Virus record (IMG/VR): IMGVR_UViG_3300032213_002090
Span: 1 to 22,736 of that record
DNA: 22,736 bases
Direction: 5' to 3' (one strand)
From: a virus
Part shown: piece after piece, positions 5,390 through 21,174 of the stretch
Position numbering within the stretch: position 1 is the first letter of the stretch
How the letters are laid out: each line of letters opens with the position of its first letter
The notes under the pieces: generated by a model
Told to the model about the DNA's origin: nothing
Database searches by the model: none
Seen by the model: the letters and a program-made list of their open reading frames with translations, nothing else
Program-made: the position numbers and the translations under genes

Positions 5390-8296
5390 TTACCTATACC
5401 AACCCAAACTTTGTTTTAAAGTTGTTTCTTTCTTTTGGCCTCTACTGTTTAATTGATGTTTTACTAAAGAGTTAGATATATCTTTTCCATCCATAATCAT
5501 TTGAACTACTGCAGGTGTTGCTTGATATCCAGCCATCTCCGCTACCAATAATTCAATATTTTTCATCACAGTCAACATTTGAGTACCTTCATCTAATGCG
5601 GTTTGTACTTGCTGTTGTTGTTTTACTTGTTCTACTTTTTTAGCTGGTTGGCCAACTCCTGTCATTGCATCTGCCGCTTTACCACCCAAAAAATATCCCA
5701 GTCCACCACCTATTAAAGCACCTGCAGGTACAGTTGCCCAAGCAAATGGGCCACCCGCTGCACCCAATTGTGCACCATAAGCTGCACCTGCCCATCCAGC
5801 TGCTGCGGACGTACCTACCCCAGCTGCTATTTGTGTTGTAGATTGTCCTTCGTTATATCTACCATATGCATCTAATCCAGCACCTAATACTCCTAATCCT
5901 TTTCCTGCAACATTTGCAAATTTGGAATATTTTGCAAGTTTGGATGCATCTTTAAATGCTTTTGCTTCTGCTGCTGATACAATTTGTCCTTTTGCATTTC
6001 TAACTAATTGATTTGCTCCCGTGCCCGTAACTTTATATCCTGCAAAATTACCTCCAATTCCAGCTCCAGTTCCTGCAGTAGCCGATTTTGCTCCTCCTGC
6101 AGCTGTAGCGGTTACTGCTTTTCCGGCCATTTTATTAAGTAATAAACCACCTGCAGCTGCTCCAAGACCTGTTACAATTGCTTCCATTATACTTTGTAAC
6201 CTACTAGATGCAACCGATAATGCATCTAAACTTGTAACCGCATTTCTATATGCAGGGTTTTCATTTAAACCAACGGCCAAAGCCTTTGCAAATTCAGCAT
6301 CAACAACTGCTTTTGTAACAGTTATTTTTGCTTCTGCAATCATACTTGCCTTTTCTGCACCCGATACTCTCTTTAAAAAGGCTTTATTTTCAGCATCCAT
6401 TGTTCCAGCAAGTCCCATAGATTTTCCACCTTCTGCACGAGCTTGGAATTCATCTATTCCCATTCCAAATATTTGTTGGAATTGTGCAGCTGCTAATGGG
6501 CCTGCCTTTCTTACGGATTCTAATACACCAGATTGTTTTATATTTGCAAATGCCTCACCATATTTTCCTTGGTATGCAAGTGATTGTGCAACTGAAAAAT
6601 CCACAGGTCTATTAAGCATATTACTTAATGATATTTGTGCCTGTAAACTTTGTTTATAATTTAAAATACTTCCTGTAATACCTTCTGCAAATTTAGGAAG
6701 ATTACCTCCCATTTGTCTAAGTGCAATTGCTTGTTGTTGAAATGATTTTGCATTTTGTATATTATAACTTAACATCTTTCCAGATGCTTCGGCCATATCT
6801 TGTAAAATAACTGCTGGGTTTAATTTTGCAATATCTGCCATTTTAGCAGATGTATAGACCATATTTAAAGCGGTTTTTCCGGAAGAACCATCTATTCTTC
6901 TAAATGCTGCCATTATATCTCCAATAGATTGAGTACTTATTCCCATCTGTTTTGAAAATACTGCCGCTTGTGAACCCAATGTTGTTCCAAAAAAGTTCAC
7001 ATTTGCTCCGGATGCAATGTCTGTTATTGCACTTGCAACAGATTCGGCACCCACACCTGCTAATTGCATTTGTGATGCATTATATCCTACACTACCAATT
7101 CCTCTACCAAAAAATGCAGTTTTTGCAGCTTTGCTAAATTCAACATTTAAAGATTGCATTTTAAAGTCAAATTCTTTAGCAGCTTCTGCTGCATAATACA
7201 TTCCTTTACCATACTTTTTAGATAAAGGGCCACCGAATAATTTTGCATCTCTGTTAAATTTAGCCTGTGCTATATTAACATCTTCTTGTCTTGCCGCTAA
7301 TTGTGGTGCATATTTATTTGCTAATGTATAATATGCTTTAGAGAGACCAGGTATATATTCTCTCATTGCCAGAGCAAAACTAGTAACACCGGCTCCGATT
7401 GCTGCACCTGCTAGAGTACGTGACAATTTGGCACCAGATTTATTACCTGTTTGTTCTTTAACCCTTGCCTCTAAAAGTTGATTAAGTCCTTCTCCTCCAG
7501 GAAGGCCACTTAATGCCGCACCCGTTACTACACTATTTGCTTTTTGATTTTCTTCAAATTTTAATAATTGTTCGTATCTTTGAGATGCTTCACCACTTAG
7601 ACCTTGAGCTTTTCCCATTTCTCTCAAAGCTTTCTTCATTCCACCTAATCCCTTTCCACTATCATTAATTTTATCTAAGATTTCTTCCCAATTATCACTT
7701 AATTCGGCAACATACTGATTATATTTCTTTTGATTTATTGTTCCTCTACTAACTTGTTTATTTAATTTATCAAAAGAAGATGGCATATTTTTAAGATAGT
7801 CCGATGCTTCTATTAATGCATCTCGTTGGTCTTCTTCTAAGTTTACATTTTTCTTTAAGAATTTACCAACTCCACCAGTAGCTGCTTTGATTGCATCTAC
7901 GTTTTTATTTATTCGTTTGGTTTCATCGGATTGTTCACCATATTGTCTTGTAATACTTCTTTGAAATGCGTTTAAGTCTGAGAAATTATCTGATAAATCA
8001 TCTACTGCTTTTGCCTGTGTTTCTAATGCTTTTGCAGCTTTTTCGGTTTCTTTTGTTAAACTCTTTAATTCCTTTTCAGCTTGTTTTATAGAAGCTATTA
8101 TTTCCTTATGAGTATCGTATTGTTCTCTTAGAGTTTTTAGTTGTTTTAATACTACTTGTTGTGCTTTGCCAGGTACATCTGCAAGTTCTTTTGCTTGCCT
8201 ATTTAAACTTTGATATTGGGCATCAATTTGTTTAAGACTATTTATATAATCTTGTAATTCTTGTTTATTTCCGAAATTCGGTGTTTCGTTTGCCAT
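5390..8296 (-). CDS. Tail tape measure protein
   Basis: 968 aa. The N-terminal third is strongly helical and charged with coiled-coil heptads (about 15-110) and many Lys/Glu/Gln. It is followed by Ala/Gly-rich hydrophobic segments at about 295-310, 700-725 and 822-872, the last with runs such as GAAYGAQLGAAGG. This mix of long helices and small-residue hydrophobic patches, plus size and placement after the tube and chaperone genes, is diagnostic of tape measure proteins, which set tail length and can be ejected into the host envelope. At about 0.15 nm per helical residue it would allow a tail of up to roughly 145 nm (inference). The C-terminus (NSRGQKKETTLKQSLGWYR region) should bind the baseplate side. 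No muralytic domain is recognised. The ATG overlaps the previous stop by one base (TAATG), giving coupled translation. Confidence 0.9.
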   Translation of the reverse strand: MANETPNFGNKQELQDYINSLKQIDAQYQSLNRQAKELADVPGKAQQVVLKQLKTLREQYDTHKEIIASIKQAEKELKSLTKETEKAAKALETQAKAVDDLSDNFSDLNAFQRSITRQYGEQSDETKRINKNVDAIKAATGGVGKFLKKNVNLEEDQRDALIEASDYLKNMPSSFDKLNKQVSRGTINQKKYNQYVAELSDNWEEILDKINDSGKGLGGMKKALREMGKAQGLSGEASQRYEQLLKFEENQKANSVVTGAALSGLPGGEGLNQLLEARVKEQTGNKSGAKLSRTLAGAAIGAGVTSFALAMREYIPGLSKAYYTLANKYAPQLAARQEDVNIAQAKFNRDAKLFGGPLSKKYGKGMYYAAEAAKEFDFKMQSLNVEFSKAAKTAFFGRGIGSVGYNASQMQLAGVGAESVASAITDIASGANVNFFGTTLGSQAAVFSKQMGISTQSIGDIMAAFRRIDGSSGKTALNMVYTSAKMADIAKLNPAVILQDMAEASGKMLSYNIQNAKSFQQQAIALRQMGGNLPKFAEGITGSILNYKQSLQAQISLSNMLNRPVDFSVAQSLAYQGKYGEAFANIKQSGVLESVRKAGPLAAAQFQQIFGMGIDEFQARAEGGKSMGLAGTMDAENKAFLKRVSGAEKASMIAEAKITVTKAVVDAEFAKALAVGLNENPAYRNAVTSLDALSVASSRLQSIMEAIVTGLGAAAGGLLLNKMAGKAVTATAAGGAKSATAGTGAGIGGNFAGYKVTGTGANQLVRNAKGQIVSAAEAKAFKDASKLAKYSKFANVAGKGLGVLGAGLDAYGRYNEGQSTTQIAAGVGTSAAAGWAGAAYGAQLGAAGGPFAWATVPAGALIGGGLGYFLGGKAADAMTGVGQPAKKVEQVKQQQQVQTALDEGTQMLTVMKNIELLVAEMAGYQATPAVVQMIMDGKDISNSLVKHQLNSRGQKKETTLKQSLGWYR

Positions 8297-8544
8297 TAGT
8301 ATTTCTTCTTAAGCACTTTTTGGATATCTTTTGTATCAATACCTTGTTTGCCCAATGTGTGTTTCATTTGACGTAAAGAAGTGTTTATCGAATTATCCCA
8401 CTTTTGATACATTGCACCTAATTGTGGGTCTCTTTTTTTCATATTTTTAATAAAGTCTTGTTGTGTATTTCTATCCTTTGCTTTTAAATACAAATCAAAA
8501 ACTTTATCAAACATCGATAATTCTACTAATCTTTTTTTGGGCAT
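8296..8544 (-). CDS. Small basic protein before the tape measure, possible tail assembly chaperone or hub factor
   Basis: 82 aa, highly charged and Lys-rich, predicted all-helical (FDKVFDLYLKAKDRNTQQDF, later DIQKVLKKKY at the C-terminus), without membrane or signal segment. I do not recognise the family. Its stop overlaps the tape measure start by one base, and it follows the gp26-like pair, so its product is probably needed in step with the tape measure. In T4 the comparable slot between genes 51 and 29 holds hub gene 28. An ATATTTATA-like element lies 14 nt before the ATG. A tape measure chaperone is a reasonable guess from position only. Confidence 0.7.
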   Translation of the reverse strand: MPKKRLVELSMFDKVFDLYLKAKDRNTQQDFIKNMKKRDPQLGAMYQKWDNSINTSLRQMKHTLGKQGIDTKDIQKVLKKKY

Positions 8545-8558
8545 AATAATACTTTATG

Positions 8559-8568
8559 TATAAATATT
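8559..8568 (-). promoter_or_regulatory. Recurrent ATATTTATA element before the 82-aa gene
   Basis: The coding strand reads AATATTTATA, overlapping the stop codon (TAA, 8567-8569) of the preceding small gene and ending 14 nt before the next ATG. It matches the elements before other genes here. Possible late promoter; inferred. Confidence 0.4.
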
Positions 8569-8839
8569 ACTTTCTAATAGTTTTTGCCGGTGTAGATTTA
8601 CCTTTTGATGCTTTATTTACTTTTTCGTAACTTTCTTTTTCAATATCTTTTGCTTTAAGTAATTGTGTAAAATAAAATTCTCTCAATTTTGTAGGCATAA
8701 AATATGCATCATTCCAACTGAATCCACCATTAGAATGATAAATCATTTGAAATATTTTTTCATGTAATACTACTGAATAATTAATCGGCAGGGTAAAAAA
8801 AGTCAACCCCGAATGGGATACTAAGTGCCTCCGTCTCAC
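8567..8839 (-). CDS. Small overlapping frame downstream of the gp26-like gene, possibly expressed by ribosomal frameshift
   Basis: The frame is open from a GTG at 8839 (90 codons), overlapping the last 59 nt of the gp26-like gene in the +1 frame. There is no ATG before residue 32, while the protein-like part begins earlier (LPINYSVVLHEKIFQMIYHS, then GGFSWNDAYFMPTKLREFYF). This makes independent initiation at GTG or at TTG (8806) look weak. A T7 run in the overlap offers a route for fusion to the upstream protein. The C-terminus is Lys-rich. Position before the tape measure matches tail assembly chaperone pairs of the G/GT type, and in T4 gene 51 (a hub assembly factor) follows gene 26. I cannot show homology to gp51. 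The frame is very probably coding; its start is uncertain. Confidence 0.6.
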   Translation of the reverse strand: MRRRHLVSHSGLTFFTLPINYSVVLHEKIFQMIYHSNGGFSWNDAYFMPTKLREFYFTQLLKAKDIEKESYEKVNKASKGKSTPAKTIRK

Positions 8840-9694: not shown

Positions 9695-10192
9695 TTAGTA
9701 TTCTAAAATAGCTTGGTCGAATGTTAAAGTTAATTCAATTGAAACAGGGTCAGTTGCGTTACTCCAATCCATTTCACCAAAGTTAGCTTGAGAGATAAAT
9801 GCTCCCTCCAAAGTCCATTGTTCTACTTTATCACCAACTGGTCCTAAAGCGTAGAAAGTAATGTTCTTTTTGTAAAATGCTGCATATCCATCTCTACCTG
9901 TAATAGACTCATGTGATAATCTAATCCAATCCATTACCGCTTGTGCACCTGATGGTACAATTGGGTCATATAATGTTACTGTGATATCATCCCAGTTTGA
10001 TTTACCTTTAATCTTTCTTTTCACATTGATATGGTCTAATTCTACGATTTCAGATGTGAATGTAGGTCTAGCTGCTGTTTTTACCATATACGCTGGGATA
10101 TTAGTTCCAGTAAATTCCATGTAGAATCTATTGGCTAATTTCGGTTCCCATTGTTTGTAAAAAATTTCGTTGTATGTTAAAACGTTTGGCAT
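9695..10192 (-). CDS. Tail tube protein (T4 gp19-like)
   Basis: 165 aa, the usual size of contractile-tail tube subunits. The sequence follows the gp19 family (PF06841): NRFYMEFTGTNIPAYMVKTA near the N-terminus, a central DHINVKRKIKGKSNWDDITV beta hairpin, LYDPIVPSGAQAVMDWI, and the C-terminal SIELTLTFDQAILEY strand. Stacked hexamers of this protein form the inner DNA-conducting tube on which the sheath assembles. It follows the sheath gene by 48 nt, the standard 18-19 order, and is followed by a strong terminator. The leader AAATAGAATAAAATG shows no Shine-Dalgarno. Identification is secure. Confidence 0.95.
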   Translation of the reverse strand: MPNVLTYNEIFYKQWEPKLANRFYMEFTGTNIPAYMVKTAARPTFTSEIVELDHINVKRKIKGKSNWDDITVTLYDPIVPSGAQAVMDWIRLSHESITGRDGYAAFYKKNITFYALGPVGDKVEQWTLEGAFISQANFGEMDWSNATDPVSIELTLTFDQAILEY

Positions 10193-12611: not shown

Positions 12612-14324
12612 TTATTTGTATGTTGGTGAGAAATAATCATATACTTGTCCTACTGATGTTGCGTTTTGTAATGTGTTGTAGAATAATACTGGTCCAATTT
12701 GTCCGTTCCAAAATGTTGTTCTTGCACTATTACTACCGATTGTTAAAAAGTTTGTTGACGATGGTGCGGTAAACGCTGCTGCGGTAAATGTTCCTACCGA
12801 TGTTTTATCTACATAAACTGTTACAGTTCCTGATGGTTGGAATGTTGCCGAAATCATATACCAAACATTTGCTGATAATGAAGTCGTTAATTGTGCACTA
12901 TTACCCAATGTACTTCCATAGAATTTAACTCTATCTAATGTAGAACTATTTGATGACTCAATTGCTAAACCATAAAATCCTGCGTAGTCAAAAATATGTC
13001 TTGATGCAACACCTAATGTTGTTGTAGGTCTTACCCACATATGAATCGTACCGGTATTAGTATTGAATTGTGAAATACCACCATTGATATTTGTAGTAGT
13101 ATCTTTATACCAGAATTGATTTGTACCATTTCCTGCCCAATATTTTTCTTTTCTAGTCACACCATTATTATAAGATGGATTACCACCTGTAATACCTGCT
13201 GCATTTGTAACACCAGCTGGTCTAACACCCGTCCCATATCCACTCAAATCTAACCAATCTGTTGTTGCTGTACCATTTGTTGATGATGCCTTTGATGGGT
13301 CAGTATATAATCTTAATCCACTTGCAGGGATTGATGGTTGAGTTGTTGTACCTTTATTGTGTGAAATTAAACCATTTGAAATATATACATCGGCATTTTC
13401 CACATTTACAGTTACAATTTCAACATCTGCTTTTACAATTTCAATATTAGTAACTTCCACTTCAGTTTCATCTTGCATTACCAATCTATCTCCAGGTAAT
13501 ATATCACCTACATTCTTAAATTTATATTTTGAAATCTCATTATCCCAAACATATAGAGGGTGAGTTTCAGTTGATTTTATTAAACCATCATTTAAAGAAA
13601 AATATCCTTCTGCAAAGTTAAAAGTTAAATCACTAACTGTTACGTTTTGTGCTGAACCTGATAAAGTTTCTGAATGATAAAATCTCCATTCAACTTGGTC
13701 ACTCTCTGGGTCTTGTGATTCATCGGGTAAACCTGCTGGTACCCAAGATTTAATTTCGTCACCAACATTCAAATCTTCAACATTTACCATTGTACCATTT
13801 GCCAATTCTATTTGTGTACCAAATAATAAACAAAAATCTGGTTGGTTAATTGTATTATAAACATCTACTGCGTATAAAATTTTGGTACTTGCAACACCAT
13901 AGTTACTTGCAGCTAAATTAAAACCATCTGCATATCCCATTGTCAATGTAGATTGTGCTTCGGAATAGTTAGATGCATTAATTGCTGCAGGAGTAATTGG
14001 AAAAGTTGGATATGTTCCCAAAGTTGCTGAACCAACTGTAAAGTTTGCATTATTAAAAGAACAAGTAAAGTTATTTGCTTGTGTTGCCACCTTAGTAGCT
14101 ACAAATGAACCTGATGTTCCAAATGAAAAGAATGCGTTTTCACTTGTACTTTCTACGATATATGTAAAAGTTGGTGGAGTTACTGTTACGGAATCAAATG
14201 AAAATCCCTGCATATTTGTGTTGGATGTACCTCCATTTAATCCACCTAAAGAGACAGCACCGGTTCTCACCGAACCACTAACTGCTCTAAATAAATTTCC
14301 TAATGATAAATTGGTTCTTGGCAT
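12612..14324 (-). CDS. Virion surface protein with intein-like Hint domain and C-terminal LamG-like lectin domain
   Basis: 570 aa in three parts. Residues 1-164 are a Ser/Thr/Gly-rich beta region that I do not recognise. Residues 165-323 are a Hint domain: block A CLLFGTQIELANG beginning at Cys165, VEDLNVGDEI, block B TETHPLYV with His255, and the terminal ADVYISNGLISHN ending His322-Asn323. Residues about 336-570 look like a concanavalin A/LamG fold (LRLYTDPSKAS, TIHMWVRP, YGLAIESSN, WYMISATF, VTVYVDKTSVGTF, LTIGSN), suited to glycan binding. The residue after Asn323 is Lys, not Cys/Ser/Thr, so canonical protein splicing is unlikely; self-cleavage or an A-type bacterial intein-like reaction is more likely. 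There is no homing endonuclease. It lies between the fibre/glycosyltransferase genes and the sheath, so a tail adsorption or decoration role is inferred. Confidence 0.85.
   Translation of the reverse strand: MPRTNLSLGNLFRAVSGSVRTGAVSLGGLNGGTSNTNMQGFSFDSVTVTPPTFTYIVESTSENAFFSFGTSGSFVATKVATQANNFTCSFNNANFTVGSATLGTYPTFPITPAAINASNYSEAQSTLTMGYADGFNLAASNYGVASTKILYAVDVYNTINQPDFCLLFGTQIELANGTMVNVEDLNVGDEIKSWVPAGLPDESQDPESDQVEWRFYHSETLSGSAQNVTVSDLTFNFAEGYFSLNDGLIKSTETHPLYVWDNEISKYKFKNVGDILPGDRLVMQDETEVEVTNIEIVKADVEIVTVNVENADVYISNGLISHNKGTTTQPSIPASGLRLYTDPSKASSTNGTATTDWLDLSGYGTGVRPAGVTNAAGITGGNPSYNNGVTRKEKYWAGNGTNQFWYKDTTTNINGGISQFNTNTGTIHMWVRPTTTLGVASRHIFDYAGFYGLAIESSNSSTLDRVKFYGSTLGNSAQLTTSLSANVWYMISATFQPSGTVTVYVDKTSVGTFTAAAFTAPSSTNFLTIGSNSARTTFWNGQIGPVLFYNTLQNATSVGQVYDYFSPTYK
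13356..13832 (-). other. Hint (intein-like, BIL-type) domain coding segment
   Basis: Codons 165-323 of the 570-aa gene. The nucleophile Cys165 (TGT, 13830-13832), the TxxH motif with His255, and the terminal His322-Asn323 pair (AAT, 13356-13358) are all present. At 159 residues it is mini-intein size, with no room for an endonuclease. The +1 codon is AAA (Lys). Confidence 0.8.
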
Positions 14325-15334: not shown

Positions 15335-16882
15335 TTATAAACCTTTTGCTTTCTTTAACTCTTCTACCTGAATTGTTAAATTATCTATATTTTGTTGTTG
15401 CTCTTTAATACCTTCGATTAATAATGCAACTAATTTGTCATATTTTACTGCTTTGTAACCCGTTTCTCTTGTTGTTACTAATTGTGGTAATACTGCTTCA
15501 ATTTCTTGTGCAATTACACCGACATCATTTCCTTCAAAACCATGGAACTCTTTCATATCTGATTTCCAATCATAAGTGTTACCACTAATCATTCTGATTT
15601 TTTCAATTGCGTTTTCGATTGGAGTAATGTTCTCTTTAAAGTTTTTATCTGATGTAGAAAATGCTACAACATCACCACTTGCGTCAATTCTACCTGCAGT
15701 TCCACTTGCTGCCATACCGATTCCTAATGAAGCGTGTTGAACATTTGAAGTAGTTAATAAGTTTTGGTTGATAACTGTACCATATCCAGTTGTTGAACTT
15801 AAAGTTACTTGTGATGAACCCGATATTACTGTGTTTGCATCCAATCTTGTTTTAATACCTGTTGACCAGTTTGTAGTTGCAGTTGCATCTACTTGTGATG
15901 AACCACTTACTATTCCAGATGGGATAGAAGAAATACTTGCGTATGTAATTTGAGATGAACCACTTACTACTGTTTCTGCATTTAATCTTGTCTTAATTGT
16001 TGTATTAATAGAAGATGTAAATGTTTCTAAATTACTAGTTTCAACTTCTAATGCAGTTAATCTTGTAATTGCACTACCACTTGCAGTTGATAATTGGTCT
16101 AATCTACTTGTTTGTGTAGTATTAGTTGTATCATTTGAACCAGTATATGTGTTTAATGAACTCAATATACCAATTACTTGTGAAGAACCAGAAACTACTG
16201 TATTCGCATCTAATCTATTTTTAATTGTAGTATTAATCGAAGATGTGAAACTTTCTAAATTAGATGTTTCAACTTCTAATGCTGATAATCTAGTTAATGC
16301 AGAAGAACTAAATGATTCTAAATTAGCCGTTTCAATCAATAAACTTGCAGTTGTTGTGTTTAAATTAGAAACCGAAGTATTTAAACTTGCAGTTGTTGTA
16401 TTTAAATTTGTTATTGATACATTTGACGAACCTGTTGCAGCTTCTAATGAAGTTAATGTTGCTAAACTAAGTTCTTTTACAACTGTAGTTCCTGCTACAA
16501 ACTTAATAGAACCTGTTGAGATATATAAATCTTTCCAAATTTTAGTTGCAGAACCTAAATCAAATGCGTTTGTTGTTTGAGGAATAAGTGAAGAACTTAA
16601 AGATGCTACAACATTTACAGTGTCCGATGTTTGGTCACCGATTTGTAGTTGTCCACCTACTGTTAAATTACCACCGATGTTTGCATTTCCGGTAATATCT
16701 AATCCGGAACCTGAAATAGCTCCAAAGTTTCCGGTACTTCCTGTACCTGCTGATGATAATACGATGTCACCAGTAGCACCACCGACTACTAATGTTCCCA
16801 ATGTGGTATTCACATATGGTTCTCCGAATGCTAATGACCCGGATTGTTGGGCGGTACTACCGCGTCTAAATTTAAGTCCCAT
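15335..16882 (-). CDS. Tail fibre protein with C-terminal S74 intramolecular chaperone
   Basis: 515 aa. The N-terminal module (LKFRRGSTAQQSGSLAFGEP, 3-22, then VNTTLGTLVVGG) is the usual phage fibre start with RRG and GE..VNT motifs. A beta-structured part follows (to about 140), then a stalk of repeated SLNTTTASLN-like units (about 150-300) suggesting a trimeric fibrous shaft. The C-terminus from Ser411-Asp412 (SDKNFKENITPIENA) through NTYDWK, DVGVIAQEIEAVLPQLV and YKAVKYDKLVALLIEGIKEQ is a peptidase S74 (endosialidase-type) chaperone domain, which guides trimerisation and then cuts itself off at the Ser-Asp bond. A near-duplicate 36-residue unit occurs twice, 76 residues apart. It is a paralogue of the 1410-aa gene upstream and shares a transcription unit with the glycosyltransferase. 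Confidence 0.9.
   Translation of the reverse strand: MGLKFRRGSTAQQSGSLAFGEPYVNTTLGTLVVGGATGDIVLSSAGTGSTGNFGAISGSGLDITGNANIGGNLTVGGQLQIGDQTSDTVNVVASLSSSLIPQTTNAFDLGSATKIWKDLYISTGSIKFVAGTTVVKELSLATLTSLEAATGSSNVSITNLNTTTASLNTSVSNLNTTTASLLIETANLESFSSSALTRLSALEVETSNLESFTSSINTTIKNRLDANTVVSGSSQVIGILSSLNTYTGSNDTTNTTQTSRLDQLSTASGSAITRLTALEVETSNLETFTSSINTTIKTRLNAETVVSGSSQITYASISSIPSGIVSGSSQVDATATTNWSTGIKTRLDANTVISGSSQVTLSSTTGYGTVINQNLLTTSNVQHASLGIGMAASGTAGRIDASGDVVAFSTSDKNFKENITPIENAIEKIRMISGNTYDWKSDMKEFHGFEGNDVGVIAQEIEAVLPQLVTTRETGYKAVKYDKLVALLIEGIKEQQQNIDNLTIQVEELKKAKGL
15947..16054 (-). repeat. Second copy of 36-codon fibre repeat
   Basis: Codons 277-312 of the 515-aa fibre gene (ALEVETSNLETFTSS to GSSQI). 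By translation, 31 of 36 residues are identical to the copy at 16175-16282, exactly 76 codons earlier. Confidence 0.75.
16175..16282 (-). repeat. First copy of 36-codon fibre repeat
   Basis: Codons 201-236 of the 515-aa fibre gene (ALEVETSNLESFTSS to GSSQV). A related unit also occurs in the 1410-aa fibre at about 17359-17439 (ESFTSSINTTIKTKL to GSSQILG). Confidence 0.75.
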
Positions 16883-16941: not shown

Positions 16942-19900
16942 CTATTTGTTTTCCAATTCCTTTACTTTTGCAGATAATTCTTTTATAGCTTCAATTAAAA
17001 GTGGAACAATTTTTTCATAATTAACTGCTTTATATCCAGTTTCTCTTTCCGTAACTACTTCAGGTAATATTTTTTCTAATTCTTGTGCTATCACACCTAC
17101 ATCTCTACCTTTATTAGAATGTATTGTTTCAAATCCTCTTTTCCAATCGTATGTATTACCACTTATTGCTTCAACTTTTGTTAATGCATTTTCAATTGGT
17201 TGAATATTTTCTTTTAATCGTCCATCAGATGAATAAAATGCTACAATATCCCCTGACGCTCTGATTTCTCCTGCAACTATTGAGGCCTCAGTACCCACAC
17301 CTATTGAATTGAATTGATAATTACCAATTGAACCACTATGAATTGTAGAATTACCCAAAATTTGAGATGAACCACTTACTACACCATCCGAATTTAATTT
17401 AGTTTTAATCGTTGTATTAATAGAAGATGTAAATGATTCAATATTATTTAATCTAACATTTGCAGATTGAGTAAATGAATTTAATGATGTTATTGTAGTG
17501 TTTACACTTCCTGTATATGAAGCTAAATTTGTAAATCTATTTTCTACCGATTGGGTATATAATTCTAAATTAGATGTTTCAGTTTCTAATGCAGTCAATC
17601 TAGTTGAAGCATTGGAAGCCGAATTTATCAAAGAACCGGTTATAATACCAATTGCAGTAAATCTTGTTTCAACTGAACCCGTATAAGTTCCTAAAGTTGA
17701 ATTTTGTGTTAATTGAGAAGAAGTAAATGAATTTAAACTTCCAGTTATAATACCAATTGCAGTAAATCTACTATCTGCTGATGCAGTATGTGCATTTAAT
17801 CCTAATAATACATTATCTAAATTACCTGGGTCTAAAATTGATATTCTATAATCAAAACTTGCACTATCTATATAATAAGAACTTGAGAAAATATTTAAAT
17901 TTCTAATACTTTGAGAAACAGATGCACTAAATGAATTTAAACTAGATGTCGTTTGGTTAACACTTCCTGTATAAGTACCCAATGTTGCAAATCTAGTATC
18001 TACCGATGTTGTATAAGTTTGTAAATTATCAAATCTTGTATTAATATTTCCACTAAATGAATTTAAACTTGCAGTGGTTTGATTTAATGAAGATGTTGTT
18101 TGATAAATAGAAATTAATGAAGATATTACACTTGCACTAAATTGATTTAATGAAGATGTTGTTTGATTCACACTTGCAGTATAACTTCCTAATGTTATAA
18201 ATTTAGTATCAATACTTCCACTCCATATATTTGCAGATGCAGTATATAAGTTTAATGATGTATTTTCATTACTTGAAGTAAATGTATTTAAAGTTGATAT
18301 AGAAATATCTACACTTGCCGATTTAGATTGTAAATTTGATAATCTACTATCTACTGATGTTGAATATGTTGTTACACTTGCACCATTTAAACCAATAATT
18401 GTAGAAGAACTTATTGAACCCAAAGCTGCTATATTTGTATTAAAATATAATCTTTGATTAGAATCTTCCCAACTCATTGATACATTTGCTCCTGCAATAT
18501 TAAATCCTGCACCATCTGCAATTCCAGATGAAGTAGACCCACTTGCCAATGTAATTGATTTATCTTCAATGAAAGTTTCGGTTGTGTTTAATGATGTTTG
18601 AGTACCATCTACAATTAAGTTTCCTAAAATTCTAGTATTGCCACCAGTTACATCGATTGCCGTTTTTAGTGAAGCAGTATATGTGTTTAATGAAGATGTT
18701 GCAATATTTAAACTTGCAGATGTTGTTTCTAAATTATTTAATCTACCATCTCTAATGTCAATGTATCCTTTTACTGCAAATTGTGTTGGAACTGTATCTT
18801 CACCCGTAATTCCTTGTGCGTTTAATAAAGTTGTATTATTACTAACTTCATTTAATACAACACCCACACCTACTCCGTTTCTTTTGAATGGGCCTATTGC
18901 ACTTAATCCTGATAAATTAAATTGGTTTGCATCAATTGTAACTTCTCCAGTCAATTGATTTACTGCAAAGAAATCACCAATCTTTAAATTACCTATATTG
19001 TCAACTGTTGAATAAAATACTCTACCTGGAGCGTATTCAATAATTTCTCTATTTCTATTTGGAACTCCACCGAACTTTGGAAGTGCGTTATATGTTACAC
19101 CACTACCAACATATTCCATTACCAATCCACCTGTTGAGATGTTTGATAACTGATGAAAATAAACATTGTTTCCGGTTGTAATTGAAGGTGGTGCAGGGTA
19201 AACCGTTACATATCTTTGATTTGATGAACTGCCAGTTGCAACATTCGTTACTAAATAATCGGTTCCGTTTAAAATCATATTTGAAGAAACGTCAACACCT
19301 CTACTTCCACTTTCTAATTGAAACAATATTGCAGCAATTCCACTAATTTGTGCCTTTCCACCAACCGTTGTAGCTTGAATTGCACCTGGGCCAGTTGGTG
19401 CTGCAATTGTAAGAGTTGGTTGTGATGTATATCCACTACCAGGAGTTAAAATTACAATTTGGTCAATTGAACCATTTGCACTAACATTTGCTTCTGCAGT
19501 TGCTTGAACACTTGCTCCACCACCACTAATAGTCACACTTGCAACCGAACCCGTATAACCTGCTCCATCTTGTAGAATAACTGCACCAACTACTGTTGAT
19601 GTCAATGTTTGTAAAGAAGAACCGGTATTATATGTTTGAGGAAAATATGTTTTAGATACTAAACCTTTTGCACCAAAGTCAATTACCGAATTTGAAATAT
19701 TTGCAAAACCACCATTTGCAGTTTTGAAACCATAGGTGCAAAATGTAGTAAAACAAGATACGAATTGTGCATATCCTTTGTTGATTACCAAGTGACCAGG
19801 TCCACCCTGATTAACTTGAGTAAATGCATCTGCTACAAATGATTCTAATGGTGATGAACCACTTACTAAGTTACCATCGATTCTAATACCACCACCTGCA

Positions 19901-21174
19901 CCTTGTTCATCGATTATACCTGAACCAATTACGGCATTAGATGCATTTCGTACATCATTTATATTATATGGAAGTGGTGCGTAATTTGGACTAACTGGAT
20001 TTAAAGATAAAGCAGTACCATCTGTTGTTATAGGACCTGTGATTGATGAACAATTTTGAATATATGGTGATGTTCCAATTACTGGTCTTTTTGATGATGG
20101 TGCTTGAATTGATATGTGTGGTTTTTCACCTGCAACATACCCACTACCATTACTTACCATATTAATTGAAAGAGTACCTCCACTTACAGTTGCCGTTGCA
20201 GTTGCAGCACTTCCACTTGCATCAGGTCCTTCTATAATTACATTAACACTCTCACCATTAACATATCCACTTTCGGTATGTATCATTGTTAATCCACTTA
20301 CACCACCACCACTTATTGTACCAGTTGCAGTAGAACATGGGAATGAAAATGCGAATGCAGGGTGTTTTAAATCTAAAAATCTTAAACCATAAAAGTAGTT
20401 TGAATCGTGACAATGGAAATAATCTTTTGTAGGATTCGATGCAGTTAATCTAACCGTTCTCAATGTATCACCAACAATTGCAACTCCTGGTGGAACTGCT
20501 ATTGGATTGTTTTCAGTATAGTTACCACTACCTATAAAAATTGTAGTTCTTTGTATATTTGATGCAATTGCTGAACCCAAAGATGCAACTGCTGCTTTAA
20601 TTGTTCTAAATGGAGTAGATGGGTCTTTACCATCATAACTATCACTACCACTTGGAGAAACGTATAATCTATTTGAACCAGACATTGCATTATCATACAA
20701 AGATGATGATGCCTCTACTCTATCTAATCTTAAATCAACTGATGTACTAAATGATGTCGGGTCACCCATTCCAAAAAGAGAACCAGTAAATGCTGAGGCT
20801 GATATACTATTTGCAAATACTCTTCCCCATCTTTTTGAATCACTACCTAAATTATAAGTGTCCGTTGGGTTTGGTATTAAATTAGATGTAAATTCACCTG
20901 TTGCAGTAATTGTATCGGAACCACTATTTCCTAAAATTAAATTTCCAGATATATGCAAATTACCACTAATAAACATATTTGAGGCTGATATATCTCCTGT
21001 TAAGTTGATGTTTCCGAATGAAGCCGTATTTAATGATAACATTTTAATTGGAACTCCTGCCGTAGAAGTACCTACTTGTAATGCTCTTTCATTGGTATTT
21101 AAATATAACTCACCATTTACCAATGATGATGTATTTGAACTATCTCCTCTTCTTATTTGAAATATTGCTGCCAT
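16942..21174 (-). CDS. Large tail fibre with beta-helix domain and C-terminal S74 chaperone
   Basis: 1410 aa. The N-terminal module (FQIRRGDSSNTSSLVNGELY, 5-24, and LNTNERALQVG) is shared with the other fibre genes. GSLFGMGDPTSFS near 131-143 is also found in the 187-aa protein. At 170 begins LYVSPSGSDSYDGKDPSTPF followed by RTIKAAV, the usual opening of pectate-lyase-like right-handed beta-helix proteins, and beta-helix texture continues to about 700 with four GxGY repeats (301-314, 343-356, 537-549, 579-590). Residues about 810-1250 form a low-complexity stalk of SSLNSFSASV/TYTGSVDTRF-like units. Ser1316-Asp1317 (SSDGRLKENI) opens an S74 domain (NTYDWK, DVGVIAQELEKILPEVV, YKAVNYEKIVPLLIEAIKEL) that should trimerise and autocleave. 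Likely the main receptor-binding or depolymerase fibre; catalytic residues were not identified. Confidence 0.9.
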   Translation of the reverse strand: MAAIFQIRRGDSSNTSSLVNGELYLNTNERALQVGTSTAGVPIKMLSLNTASFGNINLTGDISASNMFISGNLHISGNLILGNSGSDTITATGEFTSNLIPNPTDTYNLGSDSKRWGRVFANSISASAFTGSLFGMGDPTSFSTSVDLRLDRVEASSSLYDNAMSGSNRLYVSPSGSDSYDGKDPSTPFRTIKAAVASLGSAIASNIQRTTIFIGSGNYTENNPIAVPPGVAIVGDTLRTVRLTASNPTKDYFHCHDSNYFYGLRFLDLKHPAFAFSFPCSTATGTISGGGVSGLTMIHTESGYVNGESVNVIIEGPDASGSAATATATVSGGTLSINMVSNGSGYVAGEKPHISIQAPSSKRPVIGTSPYIQNCSSITGPITTDGTALSLNPVSPNYAPLPYNINDVRNASNAVIGSGIIDEQGAGGGIRIDGNLVSGSSPLESFVADAFTQVNQGGPGHLVINKGYAQFVSCFTTFCTYGFKTANGGFANISNSVIDFGAKGLVSKTYFPQTYNTGSSLQTLTSTVVGAVILQDGAGYTGSVASVTISGGGASVQATAEANVSANGSIDQIVILTPGSGYTSQPTLTIAAPTGPGAIQATTVGGKAQISGIAAILFQLESGSRGVDVSSNMILNGTDYLVTNVATGSSSNQRYVTVYPAPPSITTGNNVYFHQLSNISTGGLVMEYVGSGVTYNALPKFGGVPNRNREIIEYAPGRVFYSTVDNIGNLKIGDFFAVNQLTGEVTIDANQFNLSGLSAIGPFKRNGVGVGVVLNEVSNNTTLLNAQGITGEDTVPTQFAVKGYIDIRDGRLNNLETTSASLNIATSSLNTYTASLKTAIDVTGGNTRILGNLIVDGTQTSLNTTETFIEDKSITLASGSTSSGIADGAGFNIAGANVSMSWEDSNQRLYFNTNIAALGSISSSTIIGLNGASVTTYSTSVDSRLSNLQSKSASVDISISTLNTFTSSNENTSLNLYTASANIWSGSIDTKFITLGSYTASVNQTTSSLNQFSASVISSLISIYQTTSSLNQTTASLNSFSGNINTRFDNLQTYTTSVDTRFATLGTYTGSVNQTTSSLNSFSASVSQSIRNLNIFSSSYYIDSASFDYRISILDPGNLDNVLLGLNAHTASADSRFTAIGIITGSLNSFTSSQLTQNSTLGTYTGSVETRFTAIGIITGSLINSASNASTRLTALETETSNLELYTQSVENRFTNLASYTGSVNTTITSLNSFTQSANVRLNNIESFTSSINTTIKTKLNSDGVVSGSSQILGNSTIHSGSIGNYQFNSIGVGTEASIVAGEIRASGDIVAFYSSDGRLKENIQPIENALTKVEAISGNTYDWKRGFETIHSNKGRDVGVIAQELEKILPEVVTERETGYKAVNYEKIVPLLIEAIKELSAKVKELENK
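17425..18387 (-). repeat. Degenerate SLN..T.S repeat stalk in the 1410-aa fibre
   Basis: Codons about 930-1250 encode many imperfect copies of a unit like TTSSLNSFSASV, TYTGSVNQ and RFTAIGIITGSLNS. The DNA is correspondingly repetitive (recurrent variants of TGATGTTGTTTG and ATTTAATGAAGATG on the + strand). The pattern suggests a trimeric shaft expanded by duplication. Confidence 0.75.

Follow-up and report, generated by a model that had tools for sequence, protein, structure and literature searches.

A PF12322 gene on the minus strand of this virus DNA stops shortly after a run of seven T (T7), and a second reading frame in the +1 register is open across that run. Does the locus make two separate proteins, or a short and a long form of one tail assembly chaperone that part at the run? 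We analysed the 22.7 kb virus record over positions 1–22,736, the whole stretch being called the window here, in which genes lie mostly on the minus strand. The conserved slip site, selection on the +1-frame domain, absent start codons, variant slip sites and links to T4 proteins together lead us to consider that the locus very probably codes for two forms of a tail assembly chaperone, as in the lambda G/GT pair, with the long form arising by a +1 slip at TTT TTT T.

The tail locus and its predicted products

Genes in the window follow the order tail fibres, sheath, tube, PF12322 gene, +1 frame, 82 aa ORF, probable tape measure and baseplate-type genes (Table 1). The PF12322 gene is thus placed between the tail tube and tape measure genes, the position expected of a G/GT-type tail assembly chaperone. 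The 82 aa ORF is lineage-specific and lies outside the chaperone: it is present in 19 of the 83 related loci searched, in 18 of these right behind the T domain.

Table 1 Features of the tail locus (window coordinates)
Feature	Position	Strand	Evidence
Probable tape measure gene, 968 aa	5390–8296	−	phrog_167 at E 0.014 only; position and size match the annotated tape measure gene of Flavobacterium phage immuto
82 aa ORF between T domain and tape measure gene	8296–8544	−	
Listed ORF of 90 aa with a GTG start, residue 32 being its first Met	8567–8839	−	+1 register relative to the PF12322 gene
+1-frame C-terminal domain (putative T part of GT / TAC-NC)	8570–8794, stop codon 8569–8567	−	conserved; dN/dS; homology to the −1-frame domain of cyanophages
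PF12322 (T4_baseplate) gene, putative short form G / TAC-N, 271 aa	8781–9596	−	PF12322 39.7 bits (gathering cut-off 24.5); phrog_150 E 9e-15
T7, candidate slip site, frame 0 GAC TTT TTT TAC, core TTT T	8795–8801	−	T7 in 109/114 loci, TTC TTT T in the other 5
Small hairpin ATCCC ATTC GGGGT, ends 4 nt 5′ of the T run	8806–8819	−	pairing excess in the TAC group
GGAGG, Shine-Dalgarno-like, inside the G gene, 26 nt 5′ of T7	8828–8832	−	strong synonymous constraint
Tail tube protein gene	9695–10192	−	
Tail sheath gene, 766 aa	10241–12541	−	

Structure prediction for the short form gave a pLDDT of 87.7. With a second-look aligner, this model has as its best PDB hit 2OB9, the tail assembly chaperone of HK97 (gp13 fold), at a modest Z of 4.6 with 96 of 104 residues aligned, and baseplate hub proteins of SP-15 and of T4-type phages are among its viral matches; a sequence search of the PDB found no relative. 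Modelled apart from the short form, the +1 domain is predicted to form three helices (pLDDT 79, pTM 0.53).

Several neighbouring genes have features of their own. Pfam sheath domains match the sheath protein from residue 488 onward only, and its N-terminal part therefore appears to be enlarged. The tail-region protein at 12612–14324 (−) contains a stretch that by eye resembles a Hint/intein-type domain (CLLFGTQIELANG...GLISHNKG), followed by a Laminin_G_3 domain. Two fibre proteins (15335–16882 and 16942–21174, both −) each carry a terminal S74 chaperone domain (endosialidase-type), and a PhyH-type dioxygenase gene lies close to the tail genes at 94–870 (−; PF05721, E 2e-15).

Conservation of the slip site and of the +1-frame domain

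The PF12322 gene ends ...GTT GAC TTT TTT TAC CCT GCC GAT TAA, with the stop codon 11 nt past T7, and T7 occurs only twice in coding orientation in the whole window. A search of viral contigs, in which the slip site was not among the search patterns, yielded 80 related loci that are 46–87% identical. Aligning homologous loci had been proposed as a check in an earlier sequence-only reading of this DNA; T7 is kept at the same codon in 79 of the 80 relatives and in the window (80/81), down to 46% protein identity, the larger set in Table 1 agrees, and the +1 frame relation is retained. Among 60 loci less than 90% alike, TTT makes up 119 of the 120 Phe codons at the slip site, against a background of 79%. 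A conserved codon able to re-pair in +1, as expected for programmed +1 frameshifting, is present as TTT T or TTT C, in immuto as TTT CTT T.

Every full-length related locus retains the +1 domain, whose consensus is NYSxxLHxxIFxMxYxxNGGFxWxDVYxMPxxLRxFYxxxL. The domain is under purifying selection: read in +1 it has a dN/dS of 0.178, whereas the other two frames give 1.2 and 1.5. Biased codon use on the 3′ side of the T run was also considered as a signal and rejected, since double coding accounts for it.

The first 15 codons of the ORF as listed overlap the G gene. They are probably not the true N-terminus, because in many relatives (e.g., L003, L006, L007) the +1 frame is shut by stops immediately 5′ of the T run. 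Ahead of the domain, 25 of 81 loci have no ATG, GTG or TTG at all and 67 of 81 have no ATG; an ATG in the +1 frame is found in the remaining 14, and GTG or TTG in many relatives. The sequence-only reading had described the PF12322 gene as reading GAC TTT TTT TAC before its stop, the second frame as open across T7 with GTG/TTG codons but no ATG before residue 32, and a fusion of about 342–343 aa; the window sequence bears out each of these (8839–8567 for the second frame; 342 aa by +1, 343 aa by −2). Its proposal that the two frames form a frameshift pair gains support from the conservation of the T run, the frame relation and the domain, and from the absent starts. Existing annotation is corrected as well: immuto has no annotation for the domain, and that of SP-15 truncates it.

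We propose that most ribosomes would read the PF12322 gene through to its stop and produce the 271 aa short form, and that a minority would slip +1 at TTT TTT T. The peptidyl-tRNA-Phe on the second UUU would step one base forward onto UUU, with ACC as the next codon, to give a 342 aa long form carrying the C-terminal domain. If their roles follow those of the lambda pair, the tape measure protein would be coated by the short form, and tail tube subunits would be recruited by the long one. We infer the occurrence and rate of slipping, the roles of both products and any help given by the hairpin and the GGAGG.

Direction of the shift and alternative routes to the domain

Variant slip sites bear on the direction. 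TTC TTT T is found in L042 and in a subclade of 14 loci (L218–L228, L230–L232), with the domain still in +1, and further sites with the domain in +1 are TTC TTT CGT in GXN1, TTT CTA in LR756508, TTT TTT CAC in SP-15 and TTT CTT TGG in immuto. At these sites tRNA-Phe could step +1 from UUU to UUU or UUC, and +1 is therefore favoured over −2. The sequence-only reading had left +1 and −2 side by side; the former is preferred, and the latter is disfavoured by the TTC TTT T, TTC TTT C and TTT C variants. A −2 shift at T7, adding one extra Phe, would be permitted by the T7 of the window and is the type used by phage Mu (PMC5009743), yet TTC TTT Y sites and LR756508 are incompatible with −2 re-pairing of tRNA-Phe, and relatives with TTC TTT T or TTC TTT C keep the domain in +1 all the same, which makes this route very improbable. 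Slippage of the polymerase on the homopolymer of seven, leading to a mixed mRNA population, we hold to be slightly less probable still: the arrangement is kept with a run of four T, with TTTC or with TTTCTTT, whereas transcriptional slippage would need a longer run. Homopolymers are also prone to sequencing error, and an assembly fault splitting one true ORF had been raised as a further explanation; it is refuted by the identical frame break in more than 100 independent contigs and in the isolates immuto, Mel-JY01, SP-15 and RM378, and has the lowest probability of all the explanations considered.

The rival with most in its favour, although in our judgement an unlikely one, is that the C-terminal domain is a small protein of its own, started in the +1 frame at GTG 8839, at a TTG or at an ATG within the domain, with no frameshift involved. 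The window does carry GTG and TTG codons in this frame and a GGAGG upstream, start codons of one kind or another are found in many single loci (see above) and make a separate start possible there, the records of SP-15 and Mel-JY01 annotate a separate ORF, and L229, L233 and the majority of the −1 clade have an ATG close to where the domain begins. Against it, such a start is lacking altogether in the 25 loci mentioned, and T7 would need no conserving. A separate ATG-started gene in relatives had been named beforehand as a finding that would speak against a frameshift. It occurs in L229 and L233, but the slip site is absent there too; in the +1 clade the ATG-started form is thus found where the slip site is lost, and these two loci, having lost the site along with gaining the gene, therefore serve as a natural control. 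A +1 slip at TTT TTT T accordingly remains our preferred reading.

Upstream elements and relation to the −1 and T4 systems

The GGAGG is present in 75 of 93 loci, where 3.2 are expected under synonymous resampling. It lies ~30 nt ahead of the second TTT in 55/59 loci of the TAC group and 15/34 of the TGG group, and in the TAC group the codon preceding GAG has G as its third base regardless of the amino acid. The element suggests that something beyond simple slipping acts here, which counts against our reading in its plainest form. As a start signal for the domain the GGAGG was considered and rejected, no conserved +1-frame start codon being seen at proper spacing.

Between the GGAGG and the T run lies the small hairpin, whose full 5-bp pairing is kept in 37 of 59 TAC-group loci (expected 18.7, maximum 30 across 1000 resamplings), with some covariation by pair counts. 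Its fold energy is not significant in the window alone (P 0.39–0.49), nor in immuto, GXN1 or RM378; it is significant in LR756508, and in Mel-JY01 and SP-15 for some of the tested lengths. We regard the hairpin as no more than probable, because Pro/Gly codons force two of the five pairs, the loci share ancestry and the window by itself gives no significant result; as a +1 stimulator it is possible. A hairpin next to the E-site on 70S ribosomes stimulates +1 frameshifting and dampens −1 (PMC6321510). Downstream RNA structure gave no clear signal as a stimulator (mean z −0.7 to −0.85, against −0.6 in a control window).

A set of −1 phages (KVP40, the cyanophages P-SSM2 and S-PM2, HTVC008M, phiM12 and phiW-14) carries a T run at the end of the gene, in most cases T TTT TTC, and has the domain in the −1 frame; in HTVC008M no ATG, GTG or TTG was seen ahead of the domain. 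TTTTTTC is kept in 80/80 cyanophage loci. There a GAGGG precedes the slip run by 9–10 nt in 77 of 80 loci, within the 8–11 nt given for known −1 stimulators (PMC6321510), in contrast to the GGAGG 26 nt before the run and the hairpin of the present locus.

Profile comparison with hhalign matched the +1 domain to the −1 domain (95.9%, score 46; shuffled columns ≤17) and the −1 domain to the gp51 C-terminus (97.0%, score 63; shuffled columns ≤16), and reversed and shuffled controls of both comparisons fail to match; set directly against gp51, the +1 domain found no support (0.3%). These comparisons support homology of the +1 domain with the domain that T4-type cyanophages have in the −1 frame and, through the −1 family, with the gp51 C-terminus. 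In a tree of the N-terminal proteins the +1 types split from the −1/T4 types with support 100/100, some long branches being unsure, and one change of frameshift direction would be enough on this tree. Tentatively, and with nearly as much to be said for as against, we suggest that, in one homologous gene, the shift at a shared T run switched direction (−1 versus +1) and that upstream control was rebuilt with it, the SD-like element standing 26 nt instead of 9–10 nt off and an E-site-side hairpin inserted between as a natural +1 stimulator. A change of recoding direction thereby becomes testable in a small natural system.

T4 and the other T4-type Straboviridae searched have two PF12322 genes per genome (gp26 and gp51), and KVP40, P-SSM2, S-PM2, HTVC008M, phiM12, phiW-14, the +1-clade phages and large contigs have at most one; a diverged copy could escape this count, and immuto and Mel-JY01 lie beneath the reach of the profile. 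With the profile links via the −1 family, these counts support the suggestion made from the sequence that gp26 and gp51 of T4 do the G/GT job, which is already published: tail assembly chaperones of T4-like phages were described by Vladimirov, Gautam and Davidson (Virology 566:9, 2022), as cited in PMC10885494 and PMC12846349, according to which some T4-like phages carry a short and a fused chaperone gene and poly-T sites serve −1 shifts. An earlier review had described G–T frameshifting as widely conserved with T4 excepted (PMC5009743), and a T4 review lists gp51 as essential and of unknown function (PMC3004832). Compared with that work as the citing papers describe it, the PF12322 N-terminal protein, the homologous C-terminal domain and the position of the T run are the same; the shift is +1 here and −1 there, and T4 itself uses two genes and no shift. 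Set against the same descriptions, what is new here is the assignment of +1 to a large clade, the proposed direction change within one homologous gene, and the conserved upstream GGAGG with the probable small hairpin.

Lambda gpG/gpGT and other frameshifted chaperones (PMC5009743) come in a short and a long form encoded by overlapping frames immediately ahead of the tape measure gene, as we predict for the present locus; lambda uses −1, and a sequence relation to it is not shown. A +1 frameshift is reported to be very likely in another myovirus, HSTV-2 (PMC5009743). The prfB site (CUU UGA with an upstream SD; PMC6321510) would share +1 re-pairing of the P-site tRNA on a U-rich quartet and an upstream element; it differs in that our locus has no A-site stop codon and its SD-like element lies 26 nt from the T run, whereas that of prfB adjoins the slip codon. 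On our reading, the recently recognised T4-type tail assembly chaperones would reach into a large phage clade with few cultivated members, and one gene family would have found several solutions: a +1 shift, a −1 shift, two genes as in T4, or a separate domain gene.

Two further arrangements were seen among the relatives. LR756511, a 595 kb phage (L088, ~4769), has the domain in the −1 frame and an ATG that overlaps the stop (TAATG), although the tree groups its N-terminal protein with those of the +1 clade. In the T4-type loci L135/L136 (the record behind L098, G011), the gp51 gene is split by a frame break.
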